64,000 nt of DNA from Nocardioides sp. InS609-2 (GTDB taxonomy: Bacteria; Actinomycetota; Actinomycetes; Propionibacteriales; Nocardioidaceae), in NCBI RefSeq assembly GCF_023208195.1, contig NZ_CP060034.1, positions 744,001 through 808,000 on the forward strand, in the 5' to 3' direction. How positions within the stretch are numbered: the stretch's first letter is position 1; each line of letters opens with the position of its first letter. Positions 35,695-51,249 of the stretch are shown in pieces. The position numbers and the translations under genes were made by a program. The notes below the pieces were generated by a model. It ran no database searches and had not been told where the DNA came from. It saw only the letters and a program-made list of their open reading frames with translations.

Positions 35695-36693
<999 letters not shown>

Positions 36694-36700
36694 CTTCGGC

Positions 36701-36850
36701 CTACCTGCCCAGCGTGGTGAGCAGGAGGAGTCCGATGGCAAGGGCCCCGGACGCGAGTGCCGAGAAGGTCATCAGGGCGACCACGGCTCGGGCCTGGTCG
36801 CGGACGCGCGGTGACCGCGCGTCCGTCGTACCTGCCCAGGTGTTGCTCAT
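36701..36850 (-). CDS. 49-residue membrane protein between mraZ and rsmH
   Basis: A short gene, ATG at 36850 to TAG at 36701. About 22 polar residues ([19 protein letters not shown]) precede a hydrophobic stretch (about residues 22-47, [25 protein letters not shown]). No family is recognised. It ends 7 bases before rsmH, in the transcript of the division cluster, so it could act in division or wall assembly (inference from place only). Confidence 0.6.
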
Positions 36851-36923
36851 GGTCTCGACCCCAACTGTTTTGGTGCTGCTGACTTCTTGCCTTGGTGCAT
36901 GTGACGCCGCAAGGCCTGGTCCC

Positions 36924-36995
36924 TGCCCGCTCCCGCGATGGGAAGTGCCGTCTGGTGCCGGGGAAGTGACCCCAGATGGCTCGGGAGAGCGGGCA
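36924..36995 (-). ncRNA. Candidate mraW RNA motif: structured leader between mraZ and rsmH
   Basis: In an otherwise compact operon, 189 bases separate mraZ from the small membrane gene. The minus-strand transcript can fold: the outer arms 36983-36995 and 36924-36934 pair with a small bulge, and the inner arms 36972-36980 and 36947-36955 pair with one mismatch. A conserved mraW RNA motif is known upstream of mraW in actinobacteria. I matched place and fold only, not a covariance model. Confidence 0.45.
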
Positions 36996-37039
36996 CGAGA
37001 CCTCGCCCTGCGGTGTCTGTTCTGTTGTCGTGCTGGCCC

Positions 37040-37468
37040 CTAGATGCCGGGGAAGACCTCGTCGGACAGGTCCGAGAACTTCTGCTCCTGCTCCTCTGAG
37101 TACGCCGTCCAGGCCGTCGGGTCCCAGATCTCGATGCGGTTCATCGAGCCGATGACCACCACGTCCTTGCTGAGCGAGGCGTACTCCCGCAAGACCGACG
37201 GGATGGAGATCCGGCCCTGCTTGTCCGGCACCTCGTTGGAGGCGGCGGCGAACAACATGCGCGAGTAGTCACGAGCGCCCTTGACGGTGAGCGGCGCCGC
37301 GGCCAGTCGTTCGTAGAGCTTCTGGAAGTCGTCCATGGACCAGACCGTCAAGCAGCGTTCCTGCCCTCTGGTCACCACGAGTCCCTCCGCCAACTGCTCC
37401 CTGAACTTCGCCGGGAGGAACAGCCGACCCTTCTCGTCGAGCTTCGGGGTGTAGGTGCCGAAGAACAT
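37040..37468 (-). CDS. mraZ: Transcriptional regulator MraZ
   Basis: 142 residues with two MraZ/AbrB-like domains, each with a DxxxR motif: LDEKGRLFLPAKFRE and DKQGRISIPSVLREY. MraZ forms ring oligomers and binds direct repeats in front of its own operon. It is the first gene of the division cluster. Start ATG at 37468 with GGGGAGG 6 bases upstream. Four GTGGAG boxes lie upstream, over the promoter. Confidence 0.97.
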   Translation of the reverse strand: MFFGTYTPKLDEKGRLFLPAKFREQLAEGLVVTRGQERCLTVWSMDDFQKLYERLAAAPLTVKGARDYSRMLFAAASNEVPDKQGRISIPSVLREYASLSKDVVVIGSMNRIEIWDPTAWTAYSEEQEQKFSDLSDEVFPGI

Positions 37469-37508
37469 CCGGACCCTCCCCGTTACTGACGGGAGAAATC
37501 GACCTTTC

Positions 37509-37544
37509 CTCCACTTCGCTCCACTCTACTCCACATCACTCCAC
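37509..37544 (-). promoter_or_regulatory. Four MraZ boxes with exact 10-bp period
   Basis: On the minus strand GTGGAG occurs at 37539-37544, 37529-37534, 37519-37524 and 37509-37514. The spacing is exactly 10 bp, one helical turn, as expected for a MraZ ring binding one face. Two boxes lie in the promoter spacer, one overlaps the -10, and one the start site, so repression is expected. Confidence 0.88.
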
Positions 37545-37550
37545 CGTCAA
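37523..37550 (-). promoter_or_regulatory. Promoter of the mra/division cluster
   Basis: Minus strand TTGACG (37545-37550), 16-base spacer, TAGAGT (37523-37528). Transcription should start near 37516, giving a leader of about 48 bases with the GGGGAGG ribosome site. Confidence 0.7.
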
Positions 37551-37688
37551 CCATCCTTTCCGTGTTTTCCTCCTTGATTCGGGCGCGTTCGTACGCCGCC
37601 CGGGCCGGCGGCTTTCCCCGGCGTTCGGGTCCACTGATGGCTCGTTGAGCGTGGAATCGGCTCCCCGGCCGGTCGTCGTACCGCCGAA

Positions 37689-37736
37689 GTGGAGCGCGGG
37701 TGGAGGAGCTCGCCCGCCGGTGGAGGAAAGTGGTGG
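37689..37736 (+). promoter_or_regulatory. Second group of GTGGAG boxes facing moxR
   Basis: Plus strand GTGGAG at 37689-37694, 37700-37705 and 37720-37725, and GTGGTGG at 37730-37736. Spacings are 11, 20 and 10 bp, near helical phasing but less regular than the mraZ boxes. They may let MraZ also act on the divergent operon. Confidence 0.4.
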
Positions 37737-37892
37737 ACCTGTCGGGTGGTCCAGTTACTTCTCGTCGTTGCTGGGGCTCCGCGGCGACAAGTTCCGACTG
37801 GACTACCCGGGCACCATCGAGCGGTGCAACCAAATCGTGATGCGCCGGTCACGACGGGGATCGCTGCGGGCGCGTATCTTGCCCGCACGCCC

Positions 37893-37898
37893 TAGGGT
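37893..37898 (+). promoter_or_regulatory. Candidate -10 element for the moxR operon
   Basis: TAGGGT, 5 bases before the GTG of the short leader frame at 37904. No clear -35. Confidence 0.4.
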
Positions 37899-37903
37899 GT
37901 TTT

Positions 37904-37945
37904 GTGAAACAGATCTCATCGTGTGCGGGGAAGGGTGTGGCGTGA
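37904..37945 (+). CDS. Possible 13-residue leader peptide coupled to moxR
   Basis: GTG at 37904 opens a frame of 13 codons (MKQISSCAGKGVA) whose TGA overlaps the moxR GTG as GTGA. The frame starts 5 bases after a TAGGGT hexamer, as for leaderless genes in this window. It may serve to load ribosomes for moxR, or be chance. Confidence 0.35.
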   Translation: MKQISSCAGKGVA

Positions 37946-38952
37946 CGGAGGCGACTGGCCGACCGGCCGGAGACGGGGCTGATCTCGACACCTTGAGCCG
38001 GGTCACCGGCCGGGTGCGGCACAACATCGAGAAGGTCATCGAGGGCAAGCCCGACGTGGTCACAGCCGCGCTGGTCGTGATGCTCGCCGAGGGGCACCTC
38101 CTGATCGAGGACGTGCCCGGGGTCGGCAAGACCATGCTGAGCAAGGCGCTGGCGCGCAGCATCGACTGCACGGTGCGCCGCATCCAGTTCACCCCCGACC
38201 TGCTGCCGTCGGACGTCACCGGGGTCTCGGTGTTCAACCAGGACACCCGTGAGTTCGAGTTCCGGCCCGGTGGCGTGTTCGCCAACATCGTGGTCGGCGA
38301 CGAGATCAACCGGGCCTCCCCCAAGACCCAGTCGGCGCTCCTCGAGTGCATGGAGGAGCGTCAGGTCACCGTCGACAACGCGACCTACTACCTCGAGGCA
38401 CCGTTCATGGTGATAGCGACCCAGAACCCCATCGAGATGGAGGGCACCTACGCCCTCCCCGAGGCCCAGCGCGACCGCTTCATGGCACGCGTGTCGGTCG
38501 GCTACCCGGTCGAGGCCGCCGAGATCGCGATGCTCAACTCCCACACGCGGAGTAACCCGCTCGACGACCTCGAGCCGGTCACGGACGCCAGCGAGATCCG
38601 CAAGCTGGTCCAGATCGTCGGCCAGGTGCACGTCTCCGAGGCGGTCCAGCGGTACGCCGTCAACCTCACCACGGCCACCCGGCACAGCACCGAGCTGATG
38701 CTCGGCGCCTCACCGCGCGCGACCCTCCACCTGGTGCGGGCGTCGAAGGCCGCAGCCGCGATGGCCGGTCGTGACTACGTGCTGCCCGACGACGTGCACG
38801 CCCTGGCCGGGCCGGTGCTGGCCCACCGCCTGCTGCCCAACGTCGAGGCGGCCATGAGCGGACGCAGCAGCACCACGATCCTCGACGGCATCGTCGAGCG
38901 CGTTCCGGTCCCCGTCCCCGGCACTCCGGTTTCCGCGGCCGGTCGTGCGTGA
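37942..38952 (+). CDS. MoxR-family AAA ATPase
   Basis: 336 residues. Walker A GVGKTML (in EDVPGVGKTML), Walker B VVGDEINRASPKTQSALLECMEE, and sensor region IATQNPIEMEGTYALPEAQRDRF are typical of MoxR proteins, which act as chaperones for von Willebrand and DUF58 partners. It is followed by a DUF58 protein and a transglutaminase-like membrane protein, the usual cluster. The start GTG at 37942 gives normal length; GTG at 37921 in the same frame is an alternative. Confidence 0.93.
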   Translation: MTEATGRPAGDGADLDTLSRVTGRVRHNIEKVIEGKPDVVTAALVVMLAEGHLLIEDVPGVGKTMLSKALARSIDCTVRRIQFTPDLLPSDVTGVSVFNQDTREFEFRPGGVFANIVVGDEINRASPKTQSALLECMEERQVTVDNATYYLEAPFMVIATQNPIEMEGTYALPEAQRDRFMARVSVGYPVEAAEIAMLNSHTRSNPLDDLEPVTDASEIRKLVQIVGQVHVSEAVQRYAVNLTTATRHSTELMLGASPRATLHLVRASKAAAAMAGRDYVLPDDVHALAGPVLAHRLLPNVEAAMSGRSSTTILDGIVERVPVPVPGTPVSAAGRA

Positions 38953-40228
38953 GGCGCTCGCCGGCCTGACCGTCCGCGGGCGGGCGTTCCTCGCTGCCGG
39001 CGTCACGGCCATCGTCTGCGCGCTGCTCCTGGGTCAGCCGACGCTGGCCCGGGTCGGCGTGCTGGCCGCCGCGCTGCCGCTCGTGACGGCGTACTTCATC
39101 GGGCGCTCGCGCTACCGGCTGGCGCTGGTGCGCACGGTGACGCCGCAGCTGGTCGCCGCCGGGCAGCCAGCGCGCGTTCAGCTCACCCTGACCAACGAGG
39201 GCCGCACCCCGACCGGCGTCCTGCTCCTCGAGGACCAGGTGCCCTACGTGCTCGGCACCAGGCCGCGGTTCGTGCTGGAGGGCATCGGCCACGGCTGGCG
39301 GCGGCACGTGACGTACCAGATCCGCTCCGACGCACGCGGCCACTTCGAGATCGGCCCGATGACGGTGCGGGTCAGTGACCCGTTCGGCCTCGTCGAGCTC
39401 GGTCGCGCCTTCCACAGCAGCGCGCCGCTCACCGTCACCCCGCGCACCGTGCCACTCCCCCAGATCCCCGTCGGTGGCGCCTGGACCGGGTCCGGCGACA
39501 ACCGGCCGCGGGCGTTCGCCATCGGCAGCGCCGAGGACGTCACGGTGCGCGAGTACCGCCGCGGCGACGACCTGCGCCGCGTGCACTGGCGCAGCTCGGC
39601 GCGCGTCGGCGAGCTGATGGTGCGTCGCGAGGAGCAGCCCTGGCAGTCGCGGGCGACGCTCTTCCTCGACAACAGGCTCGTCTCCCACCGCGGCCAGGGC
39701 ATCGCGTCGTCGCTCGAGACCGCGGTCTCGGCGGCTGCCTCGATCGCCGTACACCTGACGCACCGCGGCTTCAGCGTGCGGCTCGTGACGGCGCAGGGCG
39801 AGGACCGCAGCACTGCCTGGCACTTCCGCGACGCCGATGTGAACACTGCCCCGCTGCTCGAGGCGCTCGCCGTCGTACAGCACGAGCACCAGCCACGGCT
39901 CGACACCGGCTGGCTGACCGAGTCGGGTCGTGGCGGCCTCGTCGTCGCCGTACTAGGCGCCGTGTCGCCGACCGACCAGCCGTTTCTCTCCCGGTTGCTG
40001 CACCACAGCAGCGCCTCCATGGCGATCGCTCTCGATGTCGACGCGTGGGCCCCGCACCTCCCGCGCAGCACCAGCGGCAGCGCTGCCCCCGCCCTGGTCG
40101 CACAGGGCTGGCGCGCGGTGTCACTCGGCCCGCGCGAACGGCTCGACGCCGCGTGGCAGGAGCTCGGTCGCTCCGGTCGACGCGGCCGCACCGCCGGCTC
40201 AGGGTCACCCGAAGCGGCGATCCGATGA
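38945..40228 (+). CDS. DUF58 membrane protein, partner of MoxR
   Basis: 427 residues. Two N-terminal helices (about residues 12-50), a beta-rich region, and the DUF58 signature REYRRGDDLRRVHWRSSARVGELMVRREEQP, followed by a von Willebrand A-like part (TLFLDNR). The GTG start overlaps moxR by 8 bases, and the stop overlaps the next ATG. The three genes form one unit. The client of this system is not known; wall-linked functions are often proposed. Confidence 0.9.
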   Translation: MREALAGLTVRGRAFLAAGVTAIVCALLLGQPTLARVGVLAAALPLVTAYFIGRSRYRLALVRTVTPQLVAAGQPARVQLTLTNEGRTPTGVLLLEDQVPYVLGTRPRFVLEGIGHGWRRHVTYQIRSDARGHFEIGPMTVRVSDPFGLVELGRAFHSSAPLTVTPRTVPLPQIPVGGAWTGSGDNRPRAFAIGSAEDVTVREYRRGDDLRRVHWRSSARVGELMVRREEQPWQSRATLFLDNRLVSHRGQGIASSLETAVSAAASIAVHLTHRGFSVRLVTAQGEDRSTAWHFRDADVNTAPLLEALAVVQHEHQPRLDTGWLTESGRGGLVVAVLGAVSPTDQPFLSRLLHHSSASMAIALDVDAWAPHLPRSTSGSAAPALVAQGWRAVSLGPRERLDAAWQELGRSGRRGRTAGSGSPEAAIR

Positions 40229-42597
40229 CTCGCTCCCGCACCGGACTCACTCAGGGCGCCGCCCTGTCGGCTGCCTGTGCCCTGACCGTCCTCGTCACCG
40301 TGGTGTCGTGGCGAGGGCTGACCGAGGATGCCGCCAGGTTCCTCGTGCCGCTGTTCTTCGTCGGTGTGGTCAACGCCGGCATCGGCACCCTCACCCGCTG
40401 GCTGCGCTGGCCGGTGTGGGCGGTGTTCGCCGTGCAGGTCGTGGTGGCCGCGCTGCTCGTGCTCGAGGTCGTCACCGGATCGCTGCTGCCCGGACCCGAC
40501 ACCCTCGCCGAGTTCGGCGCCGCCGTACGCGACGCGATGGACTCCTCGACGCGCTACGCCGCGCCGGTGCCCGCCAGGGTGCCGCCGGTGACGCCGCTGC
40601 TCCTCATGGGTGGGGTCGGCGGCATGCTGCTCGTCGACCTGGTCGCGGTGTCCTGGCAACGCGTCGCACTGGCGGGGCTGCCGCTGCTGGCGCTCTACAG
40701 CCTGCCGGCCGGCCTCCCTGCGAGTGGCGTCTCGTGGTGGCTCTTCGTGCTGATGTCGGGCGGCTACCTGCTGATGCTGTTCCTGCAGCACGACGAGCAC
40801 CTCTCCCGCTGGGGACGCGGGCTCAACCCGCGCGAGGAGGACGCCGACCCGACCGCGTTCGGGGTGCGCACCGGCGCCGTCCGCGGCACCGCGTTCGCCA
40901 TGGGTGGTATCGCGACCGCCCTGGCGATCGTCGTACCGATGGCGCTGCCGTCAGTGGGGCTAGACCTCTTCGACGGACCCGGCATCGGTGCCGGTGGCGA
41001 CGTCAACATCCAGAGCCCCATGGTCGACCTGCGGCAGGACCTCGTGCGCGGCGAGGACGTGCCCCTGATGCAGGTGACCACCTCCGGTCCGCGACCCGAC
41101 TACGCCCGCATCTCGGTGCTGACCAAGTTCAACGGAAGCCAGTGGACCCCGGGCAACCGCGACATCCCGACGACCCAGGTGGCGCGCGGCGCGATGCCGC
41201 GGCTGCAGGGCGTCTCCGACTTCGTACGCCGCAAGGAGTCGTCGTACATTTTCCAGGCCACCGACAACTTCGCCTCCACCTGGCTGCCCACGGCCTCCTC
41301 GGTCACGTCGATCGACGCCCCCGGTGACTGGCGCTTCGACCGCAAGACGATGGACTTCATCGCGAGCAGCGAAGGCCTGACAACCGCCGGCCAGCGGTGG
41401 GAGATGACCGGTGTCGACCTGACGTACGACGAGACCAGGCTCGACAGAGCGGCGCCCGGCAACACCGGTGTCTCGCTGGAGTTCCTGGAGTTGCCGAGCA
41501 ATCTCCCGCCGATCGTGCGCGACCTAGCCTCGCAAGTGACTGCCGGCGAGCCCACCCAGTTCCGCAAGGCGCGGGCCCTGCAGAGCTGGTTTCGCTCGGA
41601 GTTCACCTACAGCCTCGACAACGTCGACGCCGTCAACAACAGCGGGCTCGAGGACTTCCTCGCCGAGGACGGCCGGGTGGGCTACTGCGAGCAGTTCGCC
41701 GCGTCCATGGCGCTGATGGCGAGGTCGCTGGGCATCCCGTCGCGGGTCGCGGTCGGCTTCCTGGAGCCGGCCTCGCTGGGTGCGGGCCGCTGGCAGTTCT
41801 CGTCGCACGACCTGCACGCGTGGCCGGAGCTGTACTTCGCCGGGTCCGGCTGGGTGCGCTTCGAGCCGACGCCGGCCGACCGCGCACCCGACGCCCCCGG
41901 CTACACCGAGGGCGACCTGCCCCCCGCCCAGCCGACCGTGGCTCCCAGCAGCGGCGCCACCAACGACGAAGCGGTGCCCGACCGCACCACCGAGGACCCC
42001 AGCGCCGTGGCCGGCGACGAAACGGGCAGCGCCGGCGGGTCCATCCCGTGGCGGCTCATCGTGACGATCCTGGCCGGGCTGGCGTTGGTGGTCGGGGTCC
42101 TGCTCCTGCCGCGACTGGTGCGGCAGCGTCGTCGCCAGGCCCGCTGGCACGCCGGCGACATCGAGTCGGCCTGGCAGGAGCTGCGCGACAGCGTGGTCGA
42201 CCTGGGTCATGCCTGGCCCTCCGGCCGGTCACCCCGCGCGGCCGGGCTGGCCGTCGCCGGCCTTTTCGGTGCCTTGGCAGGTGCCGACCAGCAGCGACCT
42301 GCGCGTGGTCCCGAGCTGGCCCCCGACGCCGTCGCGGCGCTCGACCGGCTCGTCGTACGCATCGAACGGTCGCGCTATGCCCGCCCCGGCTCCGGCACGG
42401 GCGTGGACGAGGGGGCCGACGTACGCGCTGACGTCGAGGAATGTGTCGCCGCCATCGGCCTGGGCGTCACGCCGCGGACCCGGCAGCAGGCCCATTGGTG
42501 GCCGACGTCGGTGCTGAAGCGGGACCGCGCCGTGGCCTCCGATGTGGCCGAGGTGCAGGTCGTCACCCGTGGAGGCGTGACCGACCACGTGGGTTGA
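40225..42597 (+). CDS. Transglutaminase-like membrane protein (TgpA/DUF3488 type)
   Basis: 790 residues. Residues 1 to about 250 hold six or so helices (DUF3488 type). An extracellular part follows with a transglutaminase core: Cys in GRVGYCEQFAASMALMARSLGIPSRVAVGF, His in SSHDLHAWPELYF. A Thr/Glu/Pro-rich linker, one more helix (near residue 610-630) and a DUF4129-like cytoplasmic tail complete it. The family may cross-link or cleave peptides at the cell surface. The ATG overlaps the DUF58 stop (ATGA). Confidence 0.9.
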   Translation: MTRSRTGLTQGAALSAACALTVLVTVVSWRGLTEDAARFLVPLFFVGVVNAGIGTLTRWLRWPVWAVFAVQVVVAALLVLEVVTGSLLPGPDTLAEFGAAVRDAMDSSTRYAAPVPARVPPVTPLLLMGGVGGMLLVDLVAVSWQRVALAGLPLLALYSLPAGLPASGVSWWLFVLMSGGYLLMLFLQHDEHLSRWGRGLNPREEDADPTAFGVRTGAVRGTAFAMGGIATALAIVVPMALPSVGLDLFDGPGIGAGGDVNIQSPMVDLRQDLVRGEDVPLMQVTTSGPRPDYARISVLTKFNGSQWTPGNRDIPTTQVARGAMPRLQGVSDFVRRKESSYIFQATDNFASTWLPTASSVTSIDAPGDWRFDRKTMDFIASSEGLTTAGQRWEMTGVDLTYDETRLDRAAPGNTGVSLEFLELPSNLPPIVRDLASQVTAGEPTQFRKARALQSWFRSEFTYSLDNVDAVNNSGLEDFLAEDGRVGYCEQFAASMALMARSLGIPSRVAVGFLEPASLGAGRWQFSSHDLHAWPELYFAGSGWVRFEPTPADRAPDAPGYTEGDLPPAQPTVAPSSGATNDEAVPDRTTEDPSAVAGDETGSAGGSIPWRLIVTILAGLALVVGVLLLPRLVRQRRRQARWHAGDIESAWQELRDSVVDLGHAWPSGRSPRAAGLAVAGLFGALAGADQQRPARGPELAPDAVAALDRLVVRIERSRYARPGSGTGVDEGADVRADVEECVAAIGLGVTPRTRQQAHWWPTSVLKRDRAVASDVAEVQVVTRGGVTDHVG

Positions 42598-42637
42598 CCG
42601 GGTCTCGTGGCCGGTTGGTCTGCTGGCCGACTGGGGC

Positions 42638-42659
42638 TGCGGTTTGGTCCCAAACCGCA
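42638..42659. terminator. Inverted repeat between convergent genes, possible bidirectional terminator
   Basis: TGCGGTTTGG and CCAAACCGCA are exact 10-base reverse complements separated by TC. The site lies 41 bases after the transglutaminase stop and 101 bases from the DUF3040 stop. The centre must open to form a loop, so the stem is effectively 8-9 bp. Confidence 0.5.
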
Positions 42660-42759
42660 ACATCCAGGGCCGGAAACGTGCGGTTTCTGCCCAATCGGCA
42701 CCGGTGAACGGCGCGTCGGCTGATGGTCGCCGGGTACGGCGTGGCGTCGGGCGCTGGGC

Positions 42760-43182
42760 TCAGAGGCCGGTTTCACGCCGGCGTCGCCAGCGCTCTTCCA
42801 TCCGCTCCATGAAGGAGCCGCCGGACGATGCGGTGCGGGTCTTGTGCCGGCGGCCACCGTCGACCACGCCGAAGCCACTGTGCGAGGTCTCGCGAGGGGC
42901 GGCGGGTTCGTTGCCGCGGCCCTGCCACGAGGTGAGCGCGACAGCTGCGGCGGCCAGCATGACCAAGAAGCCGATGATGCCGACCCAGGCCTTCTCGGTG
43001 ATGGCACCGGTCATCAGGACGACGATGCCGACGAGGAACACGGCACCGGCCAGCACGGCACGGCGACGTGAACGACGGGCGAATGCGGTGCCGCGCAGGG
43101 TGTGCGCGAACTTGGGGTCCTCCTCGACGAGGGCTCGTTCCATCTGCTCCAGAAGGCGGAGTTCCTCTTCGGAGAGGGGCAC
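42760..43182 (-). CDS. DUF3040 membrane protein
   Basis: 140 residues. The N-terminus VPLSEEELRLLEQMERALVEEDPKFAHTL is the DUF3040 signature, followed by a basic stretch, two helices (about residues 42-62 and 66-85), and a polar Arg-rich tail. It resembles Rv2169c, which sits near the same cluster in mycobacteria. Function unknown. The GTG at 43182 is preceded by GGAGGAACC at good spacing; upstream in-frame sequence lacks this. Confidence 0.9.
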   Translation of the reverse strand: MPLSEEELRLLEQMERALVEEDPKFAHTLRGTAFARRSRRRAVLAGAVFLVGIVVLMTGAITEKAWVGIIGFLVMLAAAAVALTSWQGRGNEPAAPRETSHSGFGVVDGGRRHKTRTASSGGSFMERMEERWRRRRETGL

Positions 43183-43309
43183 GGTTCCTCCTGACCCATA
43201 TCGATGCGCGGAAACCCGCGTTACAGCAAGTCTAGGCAGGGCCTCGCCAAGACGGTAGGCGGCTCGGAGAAATCGATGCCGAATCTTGGTCATCGGTCAT
43301 GTGACGGGG

Positions 43310-44482
43310 TCACCCGAGCAGGCTGGCCGGGCGTACGGCGGCGGATCCGAACCGCCGGGTGGCCCGGTCGACCGCTCGGTCGGCGTCGGCCCAGCCGTGC
43401 TCGTTCTCGCCGAGGACGAGCTGCCGGTGCACCTGCTCACGCGGCATCAGACCCTCGACCCGCACCCCCACCAGTCGCAGCCGGGCCCGTTGCAACCCCA
43501 AGGCGTCGTACAGCCGGGTCGCGGTGCGGTAGATCTCCTGGGTCACGTCGGTGGCCTCGGGCAGGGTGCGCGAGCGGGTGATGGTGGTGAAGTCGGCGAA
43601 CCTGATCTTGATCGTGACGGTGCGGCCGGCCACGCCGGCCACCCGCATGCGGTGGGTGACCCGGGCCGAGAGCCGCAACAGCTCGCGGCCGATCACCTCG
43701 CGGTCGTCGGTGTCTCGGGAGAAGGTCTCGTCGGCGCCCATCGACCGGTCGGGCTCGTCAGGACCACGCCGCGGCGTGATGACGCGCTGGTCGACGCCCC
43801 AGGCGAGGTCGTGCAGGTGGCTGCCGAGATGGTCGCCGACCGCACGGCGCAGCGTGCGGACCGGGGTGTGGGCGACGTCGCCGACGGTGCGCAGGCCGAG
43901 ACGGTGCAGCATCGCCTGCGTCTTCTCTCCCACTCCCCATAGCTCACCCACGTCGAGGGGGTGCAGGAACGACGTGACGGCATGCGGCGGGACCACGACC
44001 ACCCCGTCGGGCTTGGCCCGGCGGCTGGCCAGCTTGGCCACCGACACCGACGCGGCCACCCCCACCGAGCAGGTGATGGCCTGCTCGTCGTGAATGGTCG
44101 CGCGCAGCCGCTCGGCGATCTCGGGCGGCGAGCCCAGCCGCCGGGTCGCGCCGGAGACGTCGAGGAACGCCTCGTCGAGCGAGAGCACCTCGACCAGTGG
44201 GGTGATCCGCCGGAAGTTCTCCATGATCGCCGCCGAGACCTGCCCGAAGGTCTCGAAGTCGGGCGCGATCACCACCGCCTGCGGGCAGAGCCGGCGGGCC
44301 CGCGTCATCGGCAGCGCCGAGCGGACGGCGTACTGGCGGGCGAGGTAGTTGGCCGAGAGCACCACGCCCCGGCTGCCGCCGCCGACGATCACCGGGACGT
44401 CCTGGAGGTCGGGGCGGTCGCGGGTGGCGACCGACGCGTAGAACGCATCCATGTCGACGTGCAGGATCGGCGTACCGGTCAT
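43310..44482 (-). CDS. dinB: DNA polymerase IV DinB (Y family)
   Basis: 390 residues. Catalytic carboxylates D10 (HVDMDAFYASV) and D103/E104 (SLDEAF) are intact, so it is an active-type Y polymerase and not the ImuB type. CSVGVAASVSVAKLASRRAKPDG and the little finger follow. QLVLGE near the C-terminus may be a clamp-binding motif. Start ATG at 44482 (MTGTPILHVD). No LexA box was found directly upstream. Confidence 0.94.
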   Translation of the reverse strand: MTGTPILHVDMDAFYASVATRDRPDLQDVPVIVGGGSRGVVLSANYLARQYAVRSALPMTRARRLCPQAVVIAPDFETFGQVSAAIMENFRRITPLVEVLSLDEAFLDVSGATRRLGSPPEIAERLRATIHDEQAITCSVGVAASVSVAKLASRRAKPDGVVVVPPHAVTSFLHPLDVGELWGVGEKTQAMLHRLGLRTVGDVAHTPVRTLRRAVGDHLGSHLHDLAWGVDQRVITPRRGPDEPDRSMGADETFSRDTDDREVIGRELLRLSARVTHRMRVAGVAGRTVTIKIRFADFTTITRSRTLPEATDVTQEIYRTATRLYDALGLQRARLRLVGVRVEGLMPREQVHRQLVLGENEHGWADADRAVDRATRRFGSAAVRPASLLG

Positions 44483-44512
44483 GGCCGCCGCCAAGATGAG
44501 TAAGGGCGTGTG

Positions 44513-45247
44513 TCAGCGGTGGGACAGCAGGTGGATCTGGGTCGCGAGGGGGAGGTACTCGGGGCGGGTCGACACGGCCCGCTCGAGCTCGACCAGCGCC
44601 GCGGTGGCACCGGGCTCGAGGTCGAGCAGGGAGCCGGGGACGAGATCGGCGAAGACGCGTACGCCGTGCACCGAGTCGACCGTGAAGCCCGCACCGGCCA
44701 GCAGGTCGGCCGCCTCGTCGTGGGTGAAGCGGCTGCCCGAACGGCCACCAGCGACCGGGGTCGAGCGGTCGAGCAGGCCGAGGGCCTGCTGGAAGTGGCC
44801 GGCCATCGCCCGGGCCAGCACGGCCGCGTGGCGCTGGGCGACCAGCAGGCTGAGCACGCCGCCGGGGCGGAGCACCTGGTGGATCGTGGCGAGGGCGGCT
44901 GCGGGGTCGTCGACGACCTCGAGCACGCCGTGGCACAGCACCACGTCGGCTTCCTCGACCACGTCGAGGAGTCCGTCGACATCGCCCTGGAGACCGGTGA
45001 CGCGGTCGAGGACGTCGCTCTCGGCGGCGCGCCGTGCCAGCGCGGCCAGCGCGTCGGGGCTCGGGTCGACCACAGTGACGGTGTGGCCGAGCTGGGCCAG
45101 CCGGACCGCGAACCCGCCGGTGCCGCCACCGATGTCGACGATGCGCGCACGTTCCTCGTAGAAGGCTCCCGGCGCGTCGAGTGCCTCCTGCAGGGCATCC
45201 CACACGACAGCAGTGCGGGCGGTGCCTCGGCGGGCGCTTTCGGACAT
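44513..45247 (-). CDS. SAM-dependent methyltransferase (class I)
   Basis: 244 residues. Motif I VDIGGGTGGFAVRLA, then VVDPSPDAL, and motif IV region VVLCHGVLEVVDDP, followed by LRPGGVLSLLVAQ. This is a class I Rossmann methyltransferase of the Methyltransf_11/SmtA-like kind; the substrate is unknown. It lies between dnaE2 and dinB in many actinobacteria. A TAGTGT hexamer 7 bases before the ATG at 45247 suggests its own leaderless message. Confidence 0.88.
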   Translation of the reverse strand: MSESARRGTARTAVVWDALQEALDAPGAFYEERARIVDIGGGTGGFAVRLAQLGHTVTVVDPSPDALAALARRAAESDVLDRVTGLQGDVDGLLDVVEEADVVLCHGVLEVVDDPAAALATIHQVLRPGGVLSLLVAQRHAAVLARAMAGHFQQALGLLDRSTPVAGGRSGSRFTHDEAADLLAGAGFTVDSVHGVRVFADLVPGSLLDLEPGATAALVELERAVSTRPEYLPLATQIHLLSHR

Positions 45248-45269: not shown

Positions 45270-48200
45270 TCACCCCGGGCTCCCCGGCGACCGGTGCCAC
45301 AGTTTTCGAGCCACGTCGCGGGTGTTCTCGCCTGCCGGCTTGATGTCGGAGTAGGGAGACATCTGGAAGCCGCTGGTGTGGACCAGCACGCGCCGCTGCT
45401 CCGGGGCCGCCGGATCGCCGAAGCCGGCCGGCACGGTGCGCATCGCCTCCCGGACCTCGGCCAGCCCGTCGGCCGAGGTCGGTGCCTGCTGCCACCTGGC
45501 CATCAGGTCGGGCAACGACCAGGCACCGGTGGCCCGCAACGAGACCCCGCGTCGTCCGGTACGACGCAGCTCGCCGCGGACGAGGAGCAGCCACGACCCG
45601 AACACAGTGGCGGCGTACGGACCTTGCGCGTCCTCGAAGAACGTCGCGTCGACCGGACCGGTGGCGTCGTCGAGGGTCAGGAAGATGACGCGACGGCCGG
45701 TGCGGATCGGCGGGGTCTGGGTGGCCACCTTCACCCCGGCCACCAGCAGCTCGGCCTTGCTGCGGCGCGCGAGCAGGTCGCGGCTGCGGGTCACCCCGAG
45801 GGCGTCGAGGAAGTCGGCGTAGCCGTCGATGACGTGCCTGCTGACGTCGAGCCCGAGGATCTCCAGCTCTGCCTTCATGCGTTCCTCGCCGGTCAGCTCG
45901 GGGAGCCCGGTGACCTCGCCCTCGGCGGGCTCGTCGCCCAGGGCGAGGGTGAGCTGCACCGAGTCGACGGGGCGGGGGGCAGCCGTGGCGCGGGACTGGG
46001 CCGCGGCCTGTCCCCACACGCCACCCCGGATCACTGGTTCCGCGTCTCGGGTGACCGGGTCACTGCTGTTGCGGGTCGCTGCGTCGGTGGCCCGCTGGGT
46101 GGCCGGCAGCGGACGGCGTCCGGAGGCGAGCCCGCGACCGCGACCGGCCCGGGCGGCCCGGTCGAGGGCGCGGGCATGGCGGTCGAGCTCGGCCACCTGA
46201 AGGAGCAGGTCGCGGCGGGTCAGCCGGCCGCGACGGCGTACGTCGGAGTCGCCTGAGGCGCCGATGCGGTAGATCGAGTCGAACCCGCCGGTCAGCACCA
46301 GCCGCTCCACGACCGGCCGGGACACCGCCGCGCGGTGCCAGAAGTCGGTGAGCGAGTGGTAGGGCCGGGCCGCGACGATGCGGTCGACCTCGCCCGCGTT
46401 GATGCCCTTCACCTCGGCGAGGGCGAGGCGGATGGCGTAGCCGGCGACCTCCTCGGCCGCCGGCTCGACGACGTACTCCTTGGCGCTGGCGTTGACGTCG
46501 AGGCCGTGCACGCCGATGCCGAAGTGGCGGGCGTCGTCGAGGATGAGGCGCTTGGGGTACATGCCCGGGTCGTGGGTGAGCACCCCGGACAGGAAGTGCG
46601 CCGGCCAGTGCGCCTTGAGCCAGGCGGACTGATAGGTCGGGAGGGCGAACGCCGCCGCGTGGGCCTTGCAGAAGCCGAACGACGCGAAGGCCTCCAGCAC
46701 CTTCCAGATCTGCTCGGTGACCGCCTCGGAGTAGCCCCGGCCCAGGGATCGCGGCATGAACCAGGCCCGCGTCTCGGCCATCCCCTCGACGTCGCCCAGG
46801 GCCCGGCGCTTCTCGTCGGCCTCGGCATAACCGACCCCGGCGAACTGGGCGATCATCTCGATGACCTGCTCGTGGAAGACGACCACGCCGTGGGTGGGCG
46901 CCAGGATCGGGATCAGGTCGTCGTGCAGGTAGGAGGAGGTCCTCCAGCCCTGCTTGACCTCGAGGTAGGGGGTGATCATGTCGCTCTTGACCGGGCCCGG
47001 CCGGAACAGCGAGATGTCGGTGATGATGTCGTCGAAGGAGTCGATGCCGGACTTGCCAACCAGCTCGCGCTGACCGGGCGACTCGATCTGGAAGACGCCC
47101 AGGGTCTTGGCGGCGCTGATCATGTCGAAGGTTGTGTCGTCGTCGAACGGCACCTGCGCTTCGTCGTCCAGGTCCACGTCGACACCATCGACCCTGGCGA
47201 TCTCGGCCACCGCGTGCGCCATCGCCGACTGCATGCGGATGCCGAGCACGTCGAGCTTGAGCAGGCCGAGGTCCTCGACGTCGTCCTTGTCGAACTGGCT
47301 CATCGGGAAGCCCGCATAGCTGGCCTCGACGGGCGTGCGGTCGAGCAGGGTCGCGTCGGAGAGCAACACCCCGCAGGGGTGTACGGCGATGTGGCGCGGC
47401 AGCCCGTCGAGCCGCTCGACCAGCCGGAACATCAAGTCGAGTCGCTCCTCCCCCAGCCCGCTGGCCCGCAGCTCGGGCAGCTCGCGCAGCGCCACCCGGG
47501 CGTCCCGGGCCCGGATGTGCGGGAACGCCTTGGCGATCGCGTCGATCTCGCCCGGCGGCATGCCCAGCGCGGCGCCGACGTCGCGGACGGCGTGCCGGAC
47601 GCGGTAGGTGTCCATCATCGAGACGCACACGCACCGCTCGCCGCCGTAGCGGTCGAGGATCGCCTCGTAGACCTCCAGCCGCCGGGCAGACTCGACGTCG
47701 ACGTCGATGTCGGGCAACGACTGCCGCAGCGGCGAGAGGAACCGCTCCATCAGGAGGTTGTGACGGATCGGGTCGACCCCGGAGACGCCGAGCAGGTAGT
47801 TGACCAGGCTGCCCGCGCCCGACCCGCGGGCAGCGCTGCGCACCCCCATCTTCTTGATCAGGTCGGTAACGTCACCGACGGTGAGGAAGTACGACGCGTA
47901 GCCGAGCTCGCGGATGATCTCGAGCTCGTCGTCGAGCCGCTTCCAGATGCGTTGGCGGGGTGCGGCGCCGTAGCGCCAGCCGATGCCGCCCTCGCAGCGG
48001 GCGCGCAGCAGCGCGTCGGCCTCGGAGACGCCGGGGGTCGAGATGATGCGGCGGTCTACCGCACCCCCCTGACGCCTCCCGTCGGGGGTTCCCGGGACGC
48101 CACCGCCAGCTGAAGCGCCAGTGACCACCGGTCTGGAGAGCTCGAACTCCGGGAAGTGCACCTCCCCGATGCCCAGGTCGCCCCGCGGGTCCAGGGCACA

Positions 48201-49139
48201 GCGGTCACCGATCGTGCGGGTCGCGGCCAGCAGCGACCGGGCGTCGCGCGGGCCGAGGCCGGCGAGCCGGCAGATCTCGTCGGCCACCTCGTGCATCTGC
48301 TTGCCGGACTTGAGGAAGCCCTCGGCATTGCCCCGAAAATCAGCAGATCCGGGGTGACGAAACTGGGCGGAGCCCAGCGGGACCAGCCGGCGGGCCGCGT
48401 CGAGGACGTCGATGGTCGGTGCGTCGAGCCGGTCGGCGTAGCGCACCGCGTTGGTCAGCACGGCACTCACTCCGGCGGCGCGGGCCAGGCCGGCCATCCG
48501 GGCGGCGTGCGGGGTGGTGCCGGGACCCCAGGTCGCCCGGGTGCCGGCGGCCAGTCGGTGGGAGACCAGCTCGACCACGAGATTCTCAGGTGGCAGGGCA
48601 CCACGCCACGCGTCGAGGATCGCCAGCGCCTCGTCGTCGCGGTGCCGGGTCACCGCGGCCCCGAGCTCGGAGGCCGGTCCGAGCAGGACGAGCACGCCGC
48701 CCCCCACCAGGTGCGGCGCGAGCAGGTCGAGGTCGGCCACCGGACGCCCCCGCTCACCGGTGAGGTGGGTGGCCGAGACCAGCCGGCAGATCGCCGCCCA
48801 GCCGGCCCGGCCCTGAGCCAGCAGGGTGACCCGGGGCAGGGACTCCTCGTCGCGGAACGCTCCGCCGCGCACGGGAGTACGGAGTGGTCTCGACTGCGTT
48901 CGACCAGCTGAGGCGGCGACCGGCAGCACGGCGAGGTCGACCCCCAGCACCGGACGGATGCCCGCCCGGCTGCACGCCTTGGCGAACTTCACCGCGCCGT
49001 AGGTGCCGTCTCGGTCGGTCAGCGCGAGGGTGTCCATCTCCTGCTCGGCGGCCCGTTCGACCAGCGTGTGCGGGTGCGAGGCGCCGTACTGCAGGGAGTA
49101 GCCGGAGGCCACGTGGAGATGGACGAACGGGTCGGACAT
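45270..49139 (-). CDS. dnaE2: Error-prone DNA polymerase DnaE2
   Basis: 1289 residues. N-terminal PHP domain (FVHLHVASGYSLQYG, where DnaE1 has HVHTEYSMLDG), C-family catalytic core with ARGSGAGSLVNYLLG and PDIDVDVESARRLEV, HhH region, and a C-terminal OB fold. It performs damage-induced mutagenesis with ImuA/ImuB in actinobacteria. ImuB is not in this window. The start is ATG at 49139 (MSDPFVHLH); an in-frame ATG at 49214 lies beyond the SOS box and is not used. A poorly conserved insert (VTGASAGGGVPGTPDGRRQGG) occurs near residue 360. Confidence 0.95.
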   Translation of the reverse strand: MSDPFVHLHVASGYSLQYGASHPHTLVERAAEQEMDTLALTDRDGTYGAVKFAKACSRAGIRPVLGVDLAVLPVAASAGRTQSRPLRTPVRGGAFRDEESLPRVTLLAQGRAGWAAICRLVSATHLTGERGRPVADLDLLAPHLVGGGVLVLLGPASELGAAVTRHRDDEALAILDAWRGALPPENLVVELVSHRLAAGTRATWGPGTTPHAARMAGLARAAGVSAVLTNAVRYADRLDAPTIDVLDAARRLVPLGSAQFRHPGSADFRGNAEGFLKSGKQMHEVADEICRLAGLGPRDARSLLAATRTIGDRCALDPRGDLGIGEVHFPEFELSRPVVTGASAGGGVPGTPDGRRQGGAVDRRIISTPGVSEADALLRARCEGGIGWRYGAAPRQRIWKRLDDELEIIRELGYASYFLTVGDVTDLIKKMGVRSAARGSGAGSLVNYLLGVSGVDPIRHNLLMERFLSPLRQSLPDIDVDVESARRLEVYEAILDRYGGERCVCVSMMDTYRVRHAVRDVGAALGMPPGEIDAIAKAFPHIRARDARVALRELPELRASGLGEERLDLMFRLVERLDGLPRHIAVHPCGVLLSDATLLDRTPVEASYAGFPMSQFDKDDVEDLGLLKLDVLGIRMQSAMAHAVAEIARVDGVDVDLDDEAQVPFDDDTTFDMISAAKTLGVFQIESPGQRELVGKSGIDSFDDIITDISLFRPGPVKSDMITPYLEVKQGWRTSSYLHDDLIPILAPTHGVVVFHEQVIEMIAQFAGVGYAEADEKRRALGDVEGMAETRAWFMPRSLGRGYSEAVTEQIWKVLEAFASFGFCKAHAAAFALPTYQSAWLKAHWPAHFLSGVLTHDPGMYPKRLILDDARHFGIGVHGLDVNASAKEYVVEPAAEEVAGYAIRLALAEVKGINAGEVDRIVAARPYHSLTDFWHRAAVSRPVVERLVLTGGFDSIYRIGASGDSDVRRRGRLTRRDLLLQVAELDRHARALDRAARAGRGRGLASGRRPLPATQRATDAATRNSSDPVTRDAEPVIRGGVWGQAAAQSRATAAPRPVDSVQLTLALGDEPAEGEVTGLPELTGEERMKAELEILGLDVSRHVIDGYADFLDALGVTRSRDLLARRSKAELLVAGVKVATQTPPIRTGRRVIFLTLDDATGPVDATFFEDAQGPYAATVFGSWLLLVRGELRRTGRRGVSLRATGAWSLPDLMARWQQAPTSADGLAEVREAMRTVPAGFGDPAAPEQRRVLVHTSGFQMSPYSDIKPAGENTRDVARKLWHRSPGSPG

Positions 49140-49175: not shown

Positions 49176-49213
49176 TGATGGAGTGATCGAACAGGTGTTC
49201 GATAACTCCATCA
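49176..49213. promoter_or_regulatory. LexA (SOS) box inside a 38-bp palindrome before dnaE2
   Basis: TCGAACAGGTGTTCGA at 49187-49202 is a perfect actinobacterial SOS box (TCGAAC-N4-GTTCGA), 48 bases before the dnaE2 ATG. It is flanked by a further inverted repeat: TGATGGAGT (49176-49184) and ACTCCATCA (49205-49213), centred on the same point. The outer arms are not part of the known box. Confidence 0.9.
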
Positions 49214-49247
49214 CTCTAACCCCCGCGACAGGGAGGTCGCAAGCCGT

Positions 49248-50294
49248 TCAGCTCCAGATCGCGGCCGCCCACTGGGGGTGATCGATGAACGGGTTCCGGT
49301 CGTGCTGGTAGGTGCCGAAGATGATGTCGTTGCGTCACATCTCCCCCGCGTCGGGCGGGTCCTGCTGGCTCCACTGGAGCATGAGCGAGAGCTTGCCGAT
49401 GTGGGGCGCTGAACCGTTGCCTGGTCAGGTCGTCGACCTCGAGGTCGGCGAAGCCGTCGTCGCCCTCGTAGCGCACCGAGATGTAGAAGATCATCCGCGC
49501 GACACCCTTGACCGCGTCGCGCGGCTCCCAGGAGTCGCCGTCGGCGTAGTTGCCGGGCGCCTCGGCGTTCTGGGTGCCGCCCGCGTCGAAGTCGAGGTTG
49601 CCGCGCGCGCCGTTGACCGTCACGTCCTCGGGCCGTCGGTAGTGGATGTTGGTGCCCGGACCGGTCGCCGTACCGAAGTCTCCGTGCGACTTGGCCCAGA
49701 CGTGCTCGCGATTCAGTCGTCGACACCTCCACCGTTGGCCGACTTGGGCATCGACTTGCCGCTGTAGAGGGTCTTGATGTTGTTGGCGTTGACGGGGTCC
49801 TGGTCGGTGGCCTTCAGGGCGTTCCAGACACTGTCGTAGGACAGCTTGGTCACGCCTGAGGAGATGATCGAGTGCAGGGCAGACTCCAGCTGCGGGCCGG
49901 TCTTGCCCAGTGCCGCTGCGTAGTAGTCGTCGTGGTCGCCCGGGTCACCCGGGTCGGTGCCCGACGCGAACGCGAAGGCGCTGGCACCGGTCAGGCCCGG
50001 GTGGGAGAAGTACGCCCCCAGCACTGTCGGCCAGCGCCAGCGCCTAGCCGGAACCGTCGCGACCGAGCCGTTCTGCGTGGCTCGCGCCTGGGCAACGCTC
50101 AGCGGTGCCGCAGCGGTGAGGGCCGTGGCCGACCTCGGCGCCGGCACGGCCTGCGCCGACTGCGTGAGGGGTACGACGGCAGCCAGGGCCGCCAGCATCG
50201 TGACGAGAAGGGTGGCGATCGCGGGCGCGGTGCGCGCGCGGTGCGTCCCGAGAGGTTGGTGCACAGCTGGCCGGGGCTCCCCGATGAAGCCCAT
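49248..50294 (-). pseudogene. Secreted endonuclease I (EndA-like) with two frameshifts and a stop
   Basis: Start ATG at 50294, with a signal peptide (about residues 20-50, IATLLVTMLAALAAVVPLTQSAQA). DDYYAAALGKTGPQLESAL and YDSVWNALKATDQDP are the N-terminal endonuclease I domain. At 49712-49715 a base is missing, where DWNREHVWAKSHGDFG would follow DD. The frame goes on through RPEDVTVNGARGNLDFD to about 49425, where one extra base shifts it back. Then SAPHIGKLSLMLQWSQQDPPDAGEM runs to an in-frame TGA (49335-49337), and RNDIIFGTYQHDRNPFIDHPQW to the natural stop at 49248. The catalytic His region is out of frame, so no active enzyme is made as read. Confidence 0.85.
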
Positions 50295-50321: not shown

Positions 50322-50777
50322 TCAGGCGACTCCGGCGCGTCCGCCGGTGACGACCAGCCGCTTCTCGAGCGGCGCGTGCGGCACCAGGCCGAGCGCCGAC
50401 TCGATGATGCCGAGGAACCGGTCGGCGTCACGGACCAGGTCGTCGGCCTCGCGCTCGGTGACCGCGCGGGTGGAGCCGGCCTCGGCGGCCGCGCGCTTGC
50501 TCGCGCCGGCGGCGAAGAAGGTCGCCCACTCGGCCAGCTCGGGGGCGACGTCGGCCAGCAGCACCCAGGCGTTCTTCTGCCTCCGTCGCCCGGGCGACGG
50601 ATGGGCGCGGGCCGCGAGCAGCGCGGCCGTGGCCCGCAGTGCTGCCACGTGGGCGCAGGCGTAGCGAGTCGGCACGTCGGCCGCGGTGATCGACTCCTGC
50701 AGCGACTCGGCCGAGCGGGCGAGGTAGGAGTGAGTGGTGGCTGGGAGCAGGTAGGGGTTCACGTCGCTCGCCGACAT
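50322..50777 (-). CDS. SAV_6107-family HEPN domain protein
   Basis: 151 residues, all-helical. The first helices contain TRYACAHVAALRATAALLAARA with an R-x4-H motif (R38, H43), the pattern of HEPN ribonucleases, though its place early in the fold differs from toxin HEPN proteins. The C-terminal half (AVTEREADDLVRDADRFLGIIESALG) is amphipathic. Function unknown. The ATG overlaps the DUF6504 stop as TGATG, so both should be made from the SOS-controlled message. Confidence 0.85.
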   Translation of the reverse strand: MSASDVNPYLLPATTHSYLARSAESLQESITAADVPTRYACAHVAALRATAALLAARAHPSPGRRRQKNAWVLLADVAPELAEWATFFAAGASKRAAAEAGSTRAVTEREADDLVRDADRFLGIIESALGLVPHAPLEKRLVVTGGRAGVA

Positions 50778-51154
50778 CAGTCGACACAGCCGACGAGTGA
50801 CCAGCGGCCGTCGGACCAGTCGAAGGAGAGGTCGAAGACGCCGCCGCCGTCGGAGGTGGCACTGCCCCGGCCGGCATGCACGCGCCACAGCTCGCGCTCG
50901 ATGAGCAGGTCGTCGGCACCTCGGTCGATGACCGTGTCGCCAGCGTCGATGCCGGGCCCGTCGTCGGTGCCGACCACGGCGCGCACCCCCGCTGACTGCC
51001 ACCAGGGCGCGGTCTCCACCCAGTGCGCCACCACCGAGCGGACCTTCCACAACCGGCCGCGCCACAGGAACTGCTCGGGCCCCTCCTCGGCCGTGTCGGG
51101 CTCTCCACCGATGCGTCCCCTGCGGACCTCAACGGGGTCGTCGTACCGCCTCAT
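50777..51154 (-). CDS. DUF6504 family protein, first gene of an SOS unit
   Basis: 125 residues, predicted small beta-rich cytoplasmic protein. FLWRGRLWKVRSVVAHWVETAPWW near residue 30-50 and REWLWRVHA-like sequence (ERELWRVHAG) are typical of the DUF6504 family, which is found beside imuB and dnaE2 in actinobacteria. No catalytic residues are known. Ribosome site AGGAGAG upstream of ATG 51154, and a LexA box 80 bases upstream. Confidence 0.85.
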   Translation of the reverse strand: MRRYDDPVEVRRGRIGGEPDTAEEGPEQFLWRGRLWKVRSVVAHWVETAPWWQSAGVRAVVGTDDGPGIDAGDTVIDRGADDLLIERELWRVHAGRGSATSDGGGVFDLSFDWSDGRWSLVGCVD

Positions 51155-51233
51155 CTGGCTCTCCTGTCAGCGTGGTCGACCCCGGCCAACCCCGGTGACG
51201 GTGGGGGTCGAGGTCACCGCCACCGAGGCTGCA

Positions 51234-51249
51234 TCGAACAGTTGTTCGA
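51234..51249. promoter_or_regulatory. LexA (SOS) box upstream of DUF6504-SAV_6107
   Basis: TCGAACAGTTGTTCGA is a perfect TCGAAC-N4-GTTCGA. It overlaps a second short palindrome TTGTTCGAACAA (51242-51253). It lies between DUF6504 and the end of the next gene, so it serves the minus-strand unit. Confidence 0.9.

Follow-up and report, generated by a model that had tools for sequence, protein, structure and literature searches.

The placement of HEPN_SAV_6107 among the SOS genes of most of the Actinomycetes is well supported by sequence and is the strongest claim that we defend here; equally well supported is LexA control of the operon that carries it in the 64,000-nt stretch of Nocardioides sp. 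InS609-2 DNA that we analyzed (the window). Upstream of the HEPN operon, a LexA-type box with at most one mismatch was found at 77 of 81 loci (perfect at 64, one mismatch off at 13, absent from the other 4), and 32 of 33 families have the box in at least one HEPN locus. The loci represent 81 of the 110 HEPN genomes of our class sample (80 further loci plus the window). The search interval for boxes began 60 b inside the domain edge and reached 700 b upstream of it; at one locus counted as having a box (L020) the position was set from the Pfam domain edge. Outside the operons, the same loci contain 2 perfect sites in 1.80 Mb, and the background box rate is ~0.007 per search interval of that size. 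The earlier note on this DNA had proposed damage control and held that absence of the boxes from relatives would speak against it; with boxes present at these 77 loci, the claim survives.

The four box-less loci fall into two groups, L026 and L041 in one family (f19) and L035 and L068 in one genus of another (f4); in the latter two, a site with two mismatches lies 136-141 b ahead of the HEPN domain. A second set, made up of the best 80 of 289 relatives (mostly Nocardioides), gave 67 perfect boxes, 7 with one mismatch and 5 with none (n = 79, L187 being left out for too little upstream sequence). Four of these five are Streptomycetaceae, and the fifth (L193), scored as box-less, does have a perfect box, which falls within a DUF6504 match that runs too long. 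The box is thus missing from both f19 loci and from 4 of the 6 Streptomycetaceae loci among the best 80 of 289 relatives; none of these 8 Streptomyces-type loci has a window-type DinB in the cluster, and most keep the methyltransferase only. HEPN was the lone gene of its cluster at 21/81 loci (some on short contigs), where the box was missing only from L035 and L068.

The window locus is summarized in Table 1. As the earlier note had it, a perfect box precedes overlapping DUF6504 and HEPN genes and a further perfect box precedes dnaE2, which the motif scan and the Pfam matches bear out. DUF6504 starts 80 bases downstream of the first box, and its stop codon shares one base with the HEPN start (TGATG), an overlap that suggests translational coupling of the two genes. 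For dnaE2 the most likely start is the ATG at 49139, with its box 48 bases ahead. The DinB protein is apparently active, judging by eye from its acidic residues.

Table 1. Features of the translesion locus in the window
Feature	Position	Strand	Evidence
Perfect LexA-type operator of DUF6504-HEPN	51234..51249	.	sequence TCGAACAGTTGTTCGA, motif scan
DUF6504, stand-alone ImuB-C-like domain, 125 aa	50777..51154	-	PF20114 64.8 bits, cut-off 24.2
HEPN_SAV_6107 protein, 151 aa	50322..50777	-	PF18726 120.3 bits, cut-off 27.2
Inserted gene between HEPN and dnaE2, two frames, broken-looking	49216..50294	-	Pfam, related DNA elsewhere
Second perfect LexA-type operator, serving dnaE2	49187..49202	.	sequence TCGAACAGGTGTTCGA, motif scan
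dnaE2, error-prone polymerase, clade equated with DnaE2B	45270..49139	-	clade by similarity
Class I SAM methyltransferase, between dnaE2 and dinB	44513..45247	-	profile match
DinB, Y-family polymerase, PRK03858 type	43310..44494	-	profile match
RecA-NT-like stretch at the DinB C-terminus	43313..43384	-	by eye; coordinates by hand

The gene inserted between HEPN and dnaE2 consists of one frame with no Pfam match (49713-50294) and another matching Endonuclease_1 at 23.7 bits, slightly under the cut-off of 25 (49216-49623). Related DNA was found at four other Nocardioides-type loci (L007, L011, L149, L161), lying 3´ of HEPN in at least L149 and L161. The cassette adjoins a division-gene cluster, with DUF3040, MraZ and the MraW methylase (RsmH) directly downstream (35695-43293).

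The boxes stand out from background in this genome as well. With up to two mismatches allowed, 10 sites were observed in the window against 2.52 expected from shuffles; the whole genome has 4 perfect sites by motif scan, and 46 when up to one mismatch is allowed, compared with 3 for a reversed control pattern. Both lexA and recA (genes confirmed by Pfam) are preceded by one-mismatch boxes, at distances of 80 b (TCAAACAAGTGTTCGA) and 143 b, respectively. The window operator is of the same lexA/recA type and sits at a conserved promoter place, the sequence signature of a LexA-regulon gene. For Streptomyces venezuelae, the available text of Stratton 2022 (PMC9380542) gives the LexA motif as tCGAAC-N4-GNNCGa; HEPN is absent from its main text. 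The remaining two perfect boxes of the genome (C1:689450 and C1:2220132; L224 and L225) are each ~138 b ahead of nearly identical 84-aa ORFs with no Pfam match. These ORFs are reminiscent, we presume, of 13E12-repeat proteins. Near lexA, three one-mismatch boxes (L222:5920-6003) lie upstream of a 129-aa LysM protein, which from its resemblance we take to be a possible SOS division inhibitor.

We read DUF6504 as a stand-alone ImuB-C domain, known in kind, since its profile reaches the C-terminus of an ImuB: PF20114 matched residues 444-516 of the 520 of Azospirillum ImuB at 26.2 bits, over the cut-off of 24.2. The other three of the four ImuB C-termini fell short of the cut-off, Shinella ImuB scoring 20.6 bits and the Comamonas and Streptomyces-plasmid proteins giving no PF20114 match, which counts against this part of our reading. 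PF20114 also matched in a Caulobacter control genome. When DUF6504 was compared by hhalign with an alignment of the four ImuB C-termini, the probability was 52% and the E-value 1.4e-4. Across 59 DUF6504 sequences, W45 and W90 are invariant and W118 and R91 are conserved at ≥90%. These tryptophans and basic residues are compatible with the ImuB-C description in the available text of Aravind 2013 (PMC3765255), in which the C-terminal tryptophan is conserved, the basic residues number two or more and the prediction is mainly beta. Searches by sequence, with the protein or the alignment, returned no convincing solved structural relative for either DUF6504 or HEPN. In the open-access literature, we found no paper on DUF6504 by name. 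The earlier note had described both proteins as lacking a known function, a description that does not wholly fit DUF6504, given its homology to ImuB-C; for HEPN, no open-access paper was found that presents it as an SOS gene. Two plasmids have related arrangements: pKRAD01 of Kineococcus radiotolerans (L114:4425-8843) carries a perfect box, a DUF6504-like protein (15.2 bits, under the cut-off) and a DnaE2-like gene, and the Arthrobacter plasmid pYA7-1a (L105:3701-7990) has adjacent DUF6504 and dnaE2 genes, with an SOS-associated peptidase gene beside them on the opposite strand.

Gene presence was compared over 148 genomes of the class, which contain DUF6504 in 68, HEPN in 110, window-type DnaE2 in 73 and ImuB in 59. 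Window-type DnaE2 was called at a best E<1e-70, a cut set at a visible gap, and ImuB at E<1e-30, the 59 genomes being drawn from 79 with any match (the other 20 matches were weak and taken for other Y-family proteins). Window-type DnaE2 occurs in 60/68 genomes with DUF6504 vs 13/80 without (Fisher 1.7e-19), and ImuB in 3/68 with DUF6504 vs 56/80 without (Fisher 1.2e-17), both p-values being overstated by kinship. Window-type DnaE2 and ImuB were found together in only 2/148 genomes. Eight genomes have DUF6504 without such a DnaE2; in three of them (G076, G084, G119) the contig breaks off at HEPN or directly beyond it, and G119 retains a partial DnaE2 fragment with 83% identity. Of the 13 with the converse pattern, 10 belong to f19, a Streptomyces-like family. 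In the window genome nothing matched ImuB at E<1e-30, the sole match (8.3e-6) being Y-family-like, and the window DnaE2 belongs, by similarity, to a clade other than the ImuB-linked one. On these counts DUF6504 is unlikely to be an accessory of ImuB, 65 of the 68 DUF6504 genomes having no ImuB. A link to a mutasome is well supported by sequence.

HEPN follows a different pattern. Its presence shows no correlation with that of DUF6504 (p=0.35) or of ImuB (p=0.13), and only a weak one with the presence of any of DUF6504, window-type DnaE2 and ImuB (p=0.08). By hand count, 43 of the 48 genomes with both DUF6504 and HEPN have them on one strand within ~540 b; in the other 5, all belonging to f17, they lie apart. 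HEPN has DUF6504 as its direct upstream neighbor at 39/81 loci of the class sample and at 50/79 loci from the best 80 of 289 relatives. DUF6504 is missing from 62 of the 110 HEPN genomes and HEPN from 20 of the 68 DUF6504 genomes, so that the two genes, which the earlier note had treated as a pair, do not form an obligate unit. In a phylum sample of 149 genomes, DUF6504 matched in 58, of which 54 are outside the class, and HEPN in 14, of which 6 are outside the class and 5 of those 6 under the curated cut-off. The Corynebacterium glutamicum control genome also carries PF18726. The surroundings of these six weak HEPN_SAV_6107 relatives (L238-L243) contain no translesion synthesis (TLS) gene in the stretch searched. 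An obligate DUF6504-HEPN unit was ruled out by the 58 vs 14 matches in the phylum and by the separability of the genes in the class.

HEPN is common to two types of cassette, DUF6504-HEPN-DnaE2-DinB and HEPN-ImuA'-ImuB-DnaE2-DinB. We coded the clusters with D for DUF6504, H for HEPN, E for window-clade DnaE2, e for ImuB-linked-clade DnaE2, A for ImuA' (identified by its own profile), B for ImuB, m for the methyltransferase and Y for DinB, each call ending where the contig ends. The 81 HEPN clusters comprise DHEmY (16), DHEY (10), HmY (7), DH (7), DHE (5), HY (4), HABemY (3), Hm (2), single cases of DHEm, HABeY, HEY, ABeH, BeHm and ABeHm, and H alone (21). The same-strand HEPN cluster thus includes a gene for a TLS polymerase or ImuB at 51/81 loci, in 24/33 families. 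The ImuB-type cassette accompanies HEPN in three families only: HEPN comes first in the ImuA'-ImuB-DnaE2-DinB unit in f18 and f37 (L040, L053, L065, L084), and after ImuB-DnaE2, with its own box, in f31 (L042, L054, L083). General replacement of ImuA' by HEPN was ruled out, an ImuA' match lying between HEPN and ImuB at L040, L053, L065 and L084. Methyltransferase relatives are present in the HEPN cluster at 31/81 loci, and at several Streptomyces-type loci the methyltransferase is the only listed partner of HEPN. No natural fusions were found among the loci examined.

At 20 loci a gap of at least 400 b separates HEPN from the next listed gene, and the gap holds a box at 7 and none at 13, 4 of which hold ImuA'. 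Window-clade dnaE2 genes at this distance have their own perfect box in 4/4 cases (the window, L028, L149, L202), methyltransferase genes a box in 3/12 (L007, L011, L161), and ImuA'-ImuB a box in the gap in 0/4. With 13/20 gaps box-less, a general rule that a gene behind an insertion regains a box was ruled out.

The DUF6504 operon matches a mutasome type already in print, and HEPN is the new part. A putative mutasome restricted to Actinobacteria and composed of DnaE2B, ImuB-C, an apparently active PolY and RecA is described in the available text of PMC12926913 (2026), where ImuB-C is placed on the PHP domain of DnaE2 in the mycobacterial model. The window resembles this DnaE2B-[ImuB-C]-PolY-RecA system, as far as that text describes it, in its stand-alone ImuB-C, a DnaE2 outside the ImuA/ImuB group, an apparently active PolY and a genome with no ImuB; the gene content of the type is seen in the window gene order and in a genome without ImuB at E<1e-30. 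We equate the window DnaE2 with DnaE2B by similarity and gene content. The RecA-NT element expected on PolY can be seen by eye, unscored, when the DinB C-terminus (ADRAVDRATRRFGSAAVRP) is set beside the RecA of the same genome (ALDAALANIEKQFGKGSVMR), and DinB proteins of this type have C-termini with a stretch that by eye is RecA-N-terminus-like. The window is unlike the published mutasome in its HEPN and methyltransferase genes, with 0 occurrences of each term in the main text of PMC12926913. The earlier note had spoken of an uncharacterised arm of the damage response; LexA control and the link to a mutasome stand, by sequence, but the DUF6504/DnaE2B/PolY/RecA operon type is published.

Other known systems share some of these parts. 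Stand-alone ImuB-C with PolY and/or DnaE2 is described in the available portion of Timinskas and Venclovas 2019 (PMC6511836). Like the window cassette, the ImuY-containing system is LexA-controlled and has a separate ImuB-C, a DnaE2 and a Y-family member and no ImuA, but ImuY is predicted to be inactive and lexA is inside its operon. The mycobacterial ImuA'-ImuB-DnaE2 mutasome, as presented in the accessible parts of PMC10421592 and PMC11791113, shares with the window a DnaE2, an ImuB-C domain and a RecA-NT motif, the motif of mycobacterial ImuB binding ImuA' (PMC11791113). It differs in having a one-piece inactive ImuB and ImuA'; the ImuB that accompanies DnaE2 in the ImuA-ImuB-DnaE2 type was not found in the window genome. 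The window HEPN belongs by Pfam to the SAV_6107-like family (PF18726), listed as actinobacterial in the available text of the HEPN survey PMC3710099, which states no SOS or polymerase link for the family and whose main text contains neither dnaE2 nor DinB. That survey was the only open-access paper found to name SAV_6107, and no paper presenting HEPN_SAV_6107 as an SOS or mutasome gene was found in the main texts of the open-access literature.

On balance, by a modest margin over even chances, we favor the locus being a LexA-repressed TLS cassette with a two-piece ImuB, in which HEPN would be a probably non-catalytic adaptor of the RecA/DinB/DnaE2 complex. Upon damage, activated RecA would lead to LexA cleavage and the operon would be made. 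DinB would dock on the sliding clamp and, through its RecA-NT-like tail, on RecA, and DUF6504, as a separate ImuB-C barrel, would link DnaE2 to this DinB platform. The two pieces together would thereby do the job of a one-piece ImuB, and the simplest reading is a two-piece ImuB, DinB platform plus DUF6504, that carries DnaE2. HEPN would be a small helical adaptor serving both the ImuB-C cassette and the ImuA'-ImuB-DnaE2 cassette, a role that we infer from its position and control; a lone HEPN gene would remain under its LexA box. The lexA/recA-type boxes, the homology of DUF6504 to ImuB-C and the recurrent DUF6504-HEPN-DnaE2-(methyltransferase)-DinB order argue for the cassette, against which count the methyltransferase's own box in 3/12 cases, the six out-of-class HEPN relatives with no TLS gene and the lack of fusions. 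The adaptor role is at odds with the lack of correlation between HEPN and DUF6504 or ImuB, with the Streptomyces-type loci and with the lone HEPN genes. A more ambitious version is tentative: HEPN_SAV_6107 might belong to the SOS core of the Actinomycetes and be a subunit common to two different mutasomes, an all-helical adaptor with a managing role comparable to that of UmuD, YolD or ImuA that sits on RecA and the Y-family partner and works with either DnaE2 clade.

The independence of HEPN from DUF6504 and ImuB would also be expected if HEPN were itself an SOS effector rather than a mutasome subunit, such as a checkpoint factor for replication or cell division, that shares a promoter and a division-gene site with the mutasome genes. 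This is somewhat unlikely and still deserves weight: lone HEPN genes (21 loci) are boxed except in L035 and L068, and a division-cluster marker (MraZ or DUF3040) was found at 57/81 HEPN loci, the window included, so that the neighborhood may partly be an inherited position. Harder to square with such an effector is that HEPN shares its transcription unit with one or the other of two different mutasome cassettes, depending on the family. Furthermore, the 24 loci with no division marker (some in short stretches) all have the box, which argues that box control is independent of the division-gene site.

Improbable, in our judgment, is that HEPN and the neighboring methyltransferase form a modification pair and the translesion genes are mere neighbors. 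The pair does occur without DinB at 14/80 loci of the relatives set (best 80 of 289; a few on short contigs) and at L026 and L041, and at Streptomyces-type loci it lacks DinB and, in most cases, a box as well, but 50/81 HEPN clusters have no methyltransferase (cut contigs included) and the LexA boxes would be left unexplained. We consider HEPN unlikely to be an RNase, and very unlikely to be an RNase toxin induced in the SOS response with DUF6504 as its antitoxin or partner. An R38-x4-H43 string in the N-terminal half of the protein is conserved (R in 82/83 and H in 74/83 sequences, the window gene counted up to three times), a point in favor of such a toxin, and lies off what we take to be the usual position of the Rx4-6H catalytic motif of HEPN RNases. 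The available text of PMC3710099 credits most HEPN domains with RNase activity, but its table gives "No" for SAV_6107 where others have "Mostly conserved," in a column that we take to refer to the catalytic motif. DUF6504 is homologous to ImuB-C and is missing from 62/110 HEPN genomes, and the window HEPN had no match in 72,556 plasmid records (E 1e-5). We rejected a toxin-antitoxin pair as the main reading on this plasmid result, the separable partners and the "No" entry.

With its LexA-type box in 32 of the 33 sampled families and its place at the head of two cassette types, HEPN is a candidate for a missing mutasome component, and DUF6504 can be read as ImuB-C instead of an unknown domain. 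The membership of actinobacterial mutasomes may extend to further components, of which HEPN would be a directly testable candidate.
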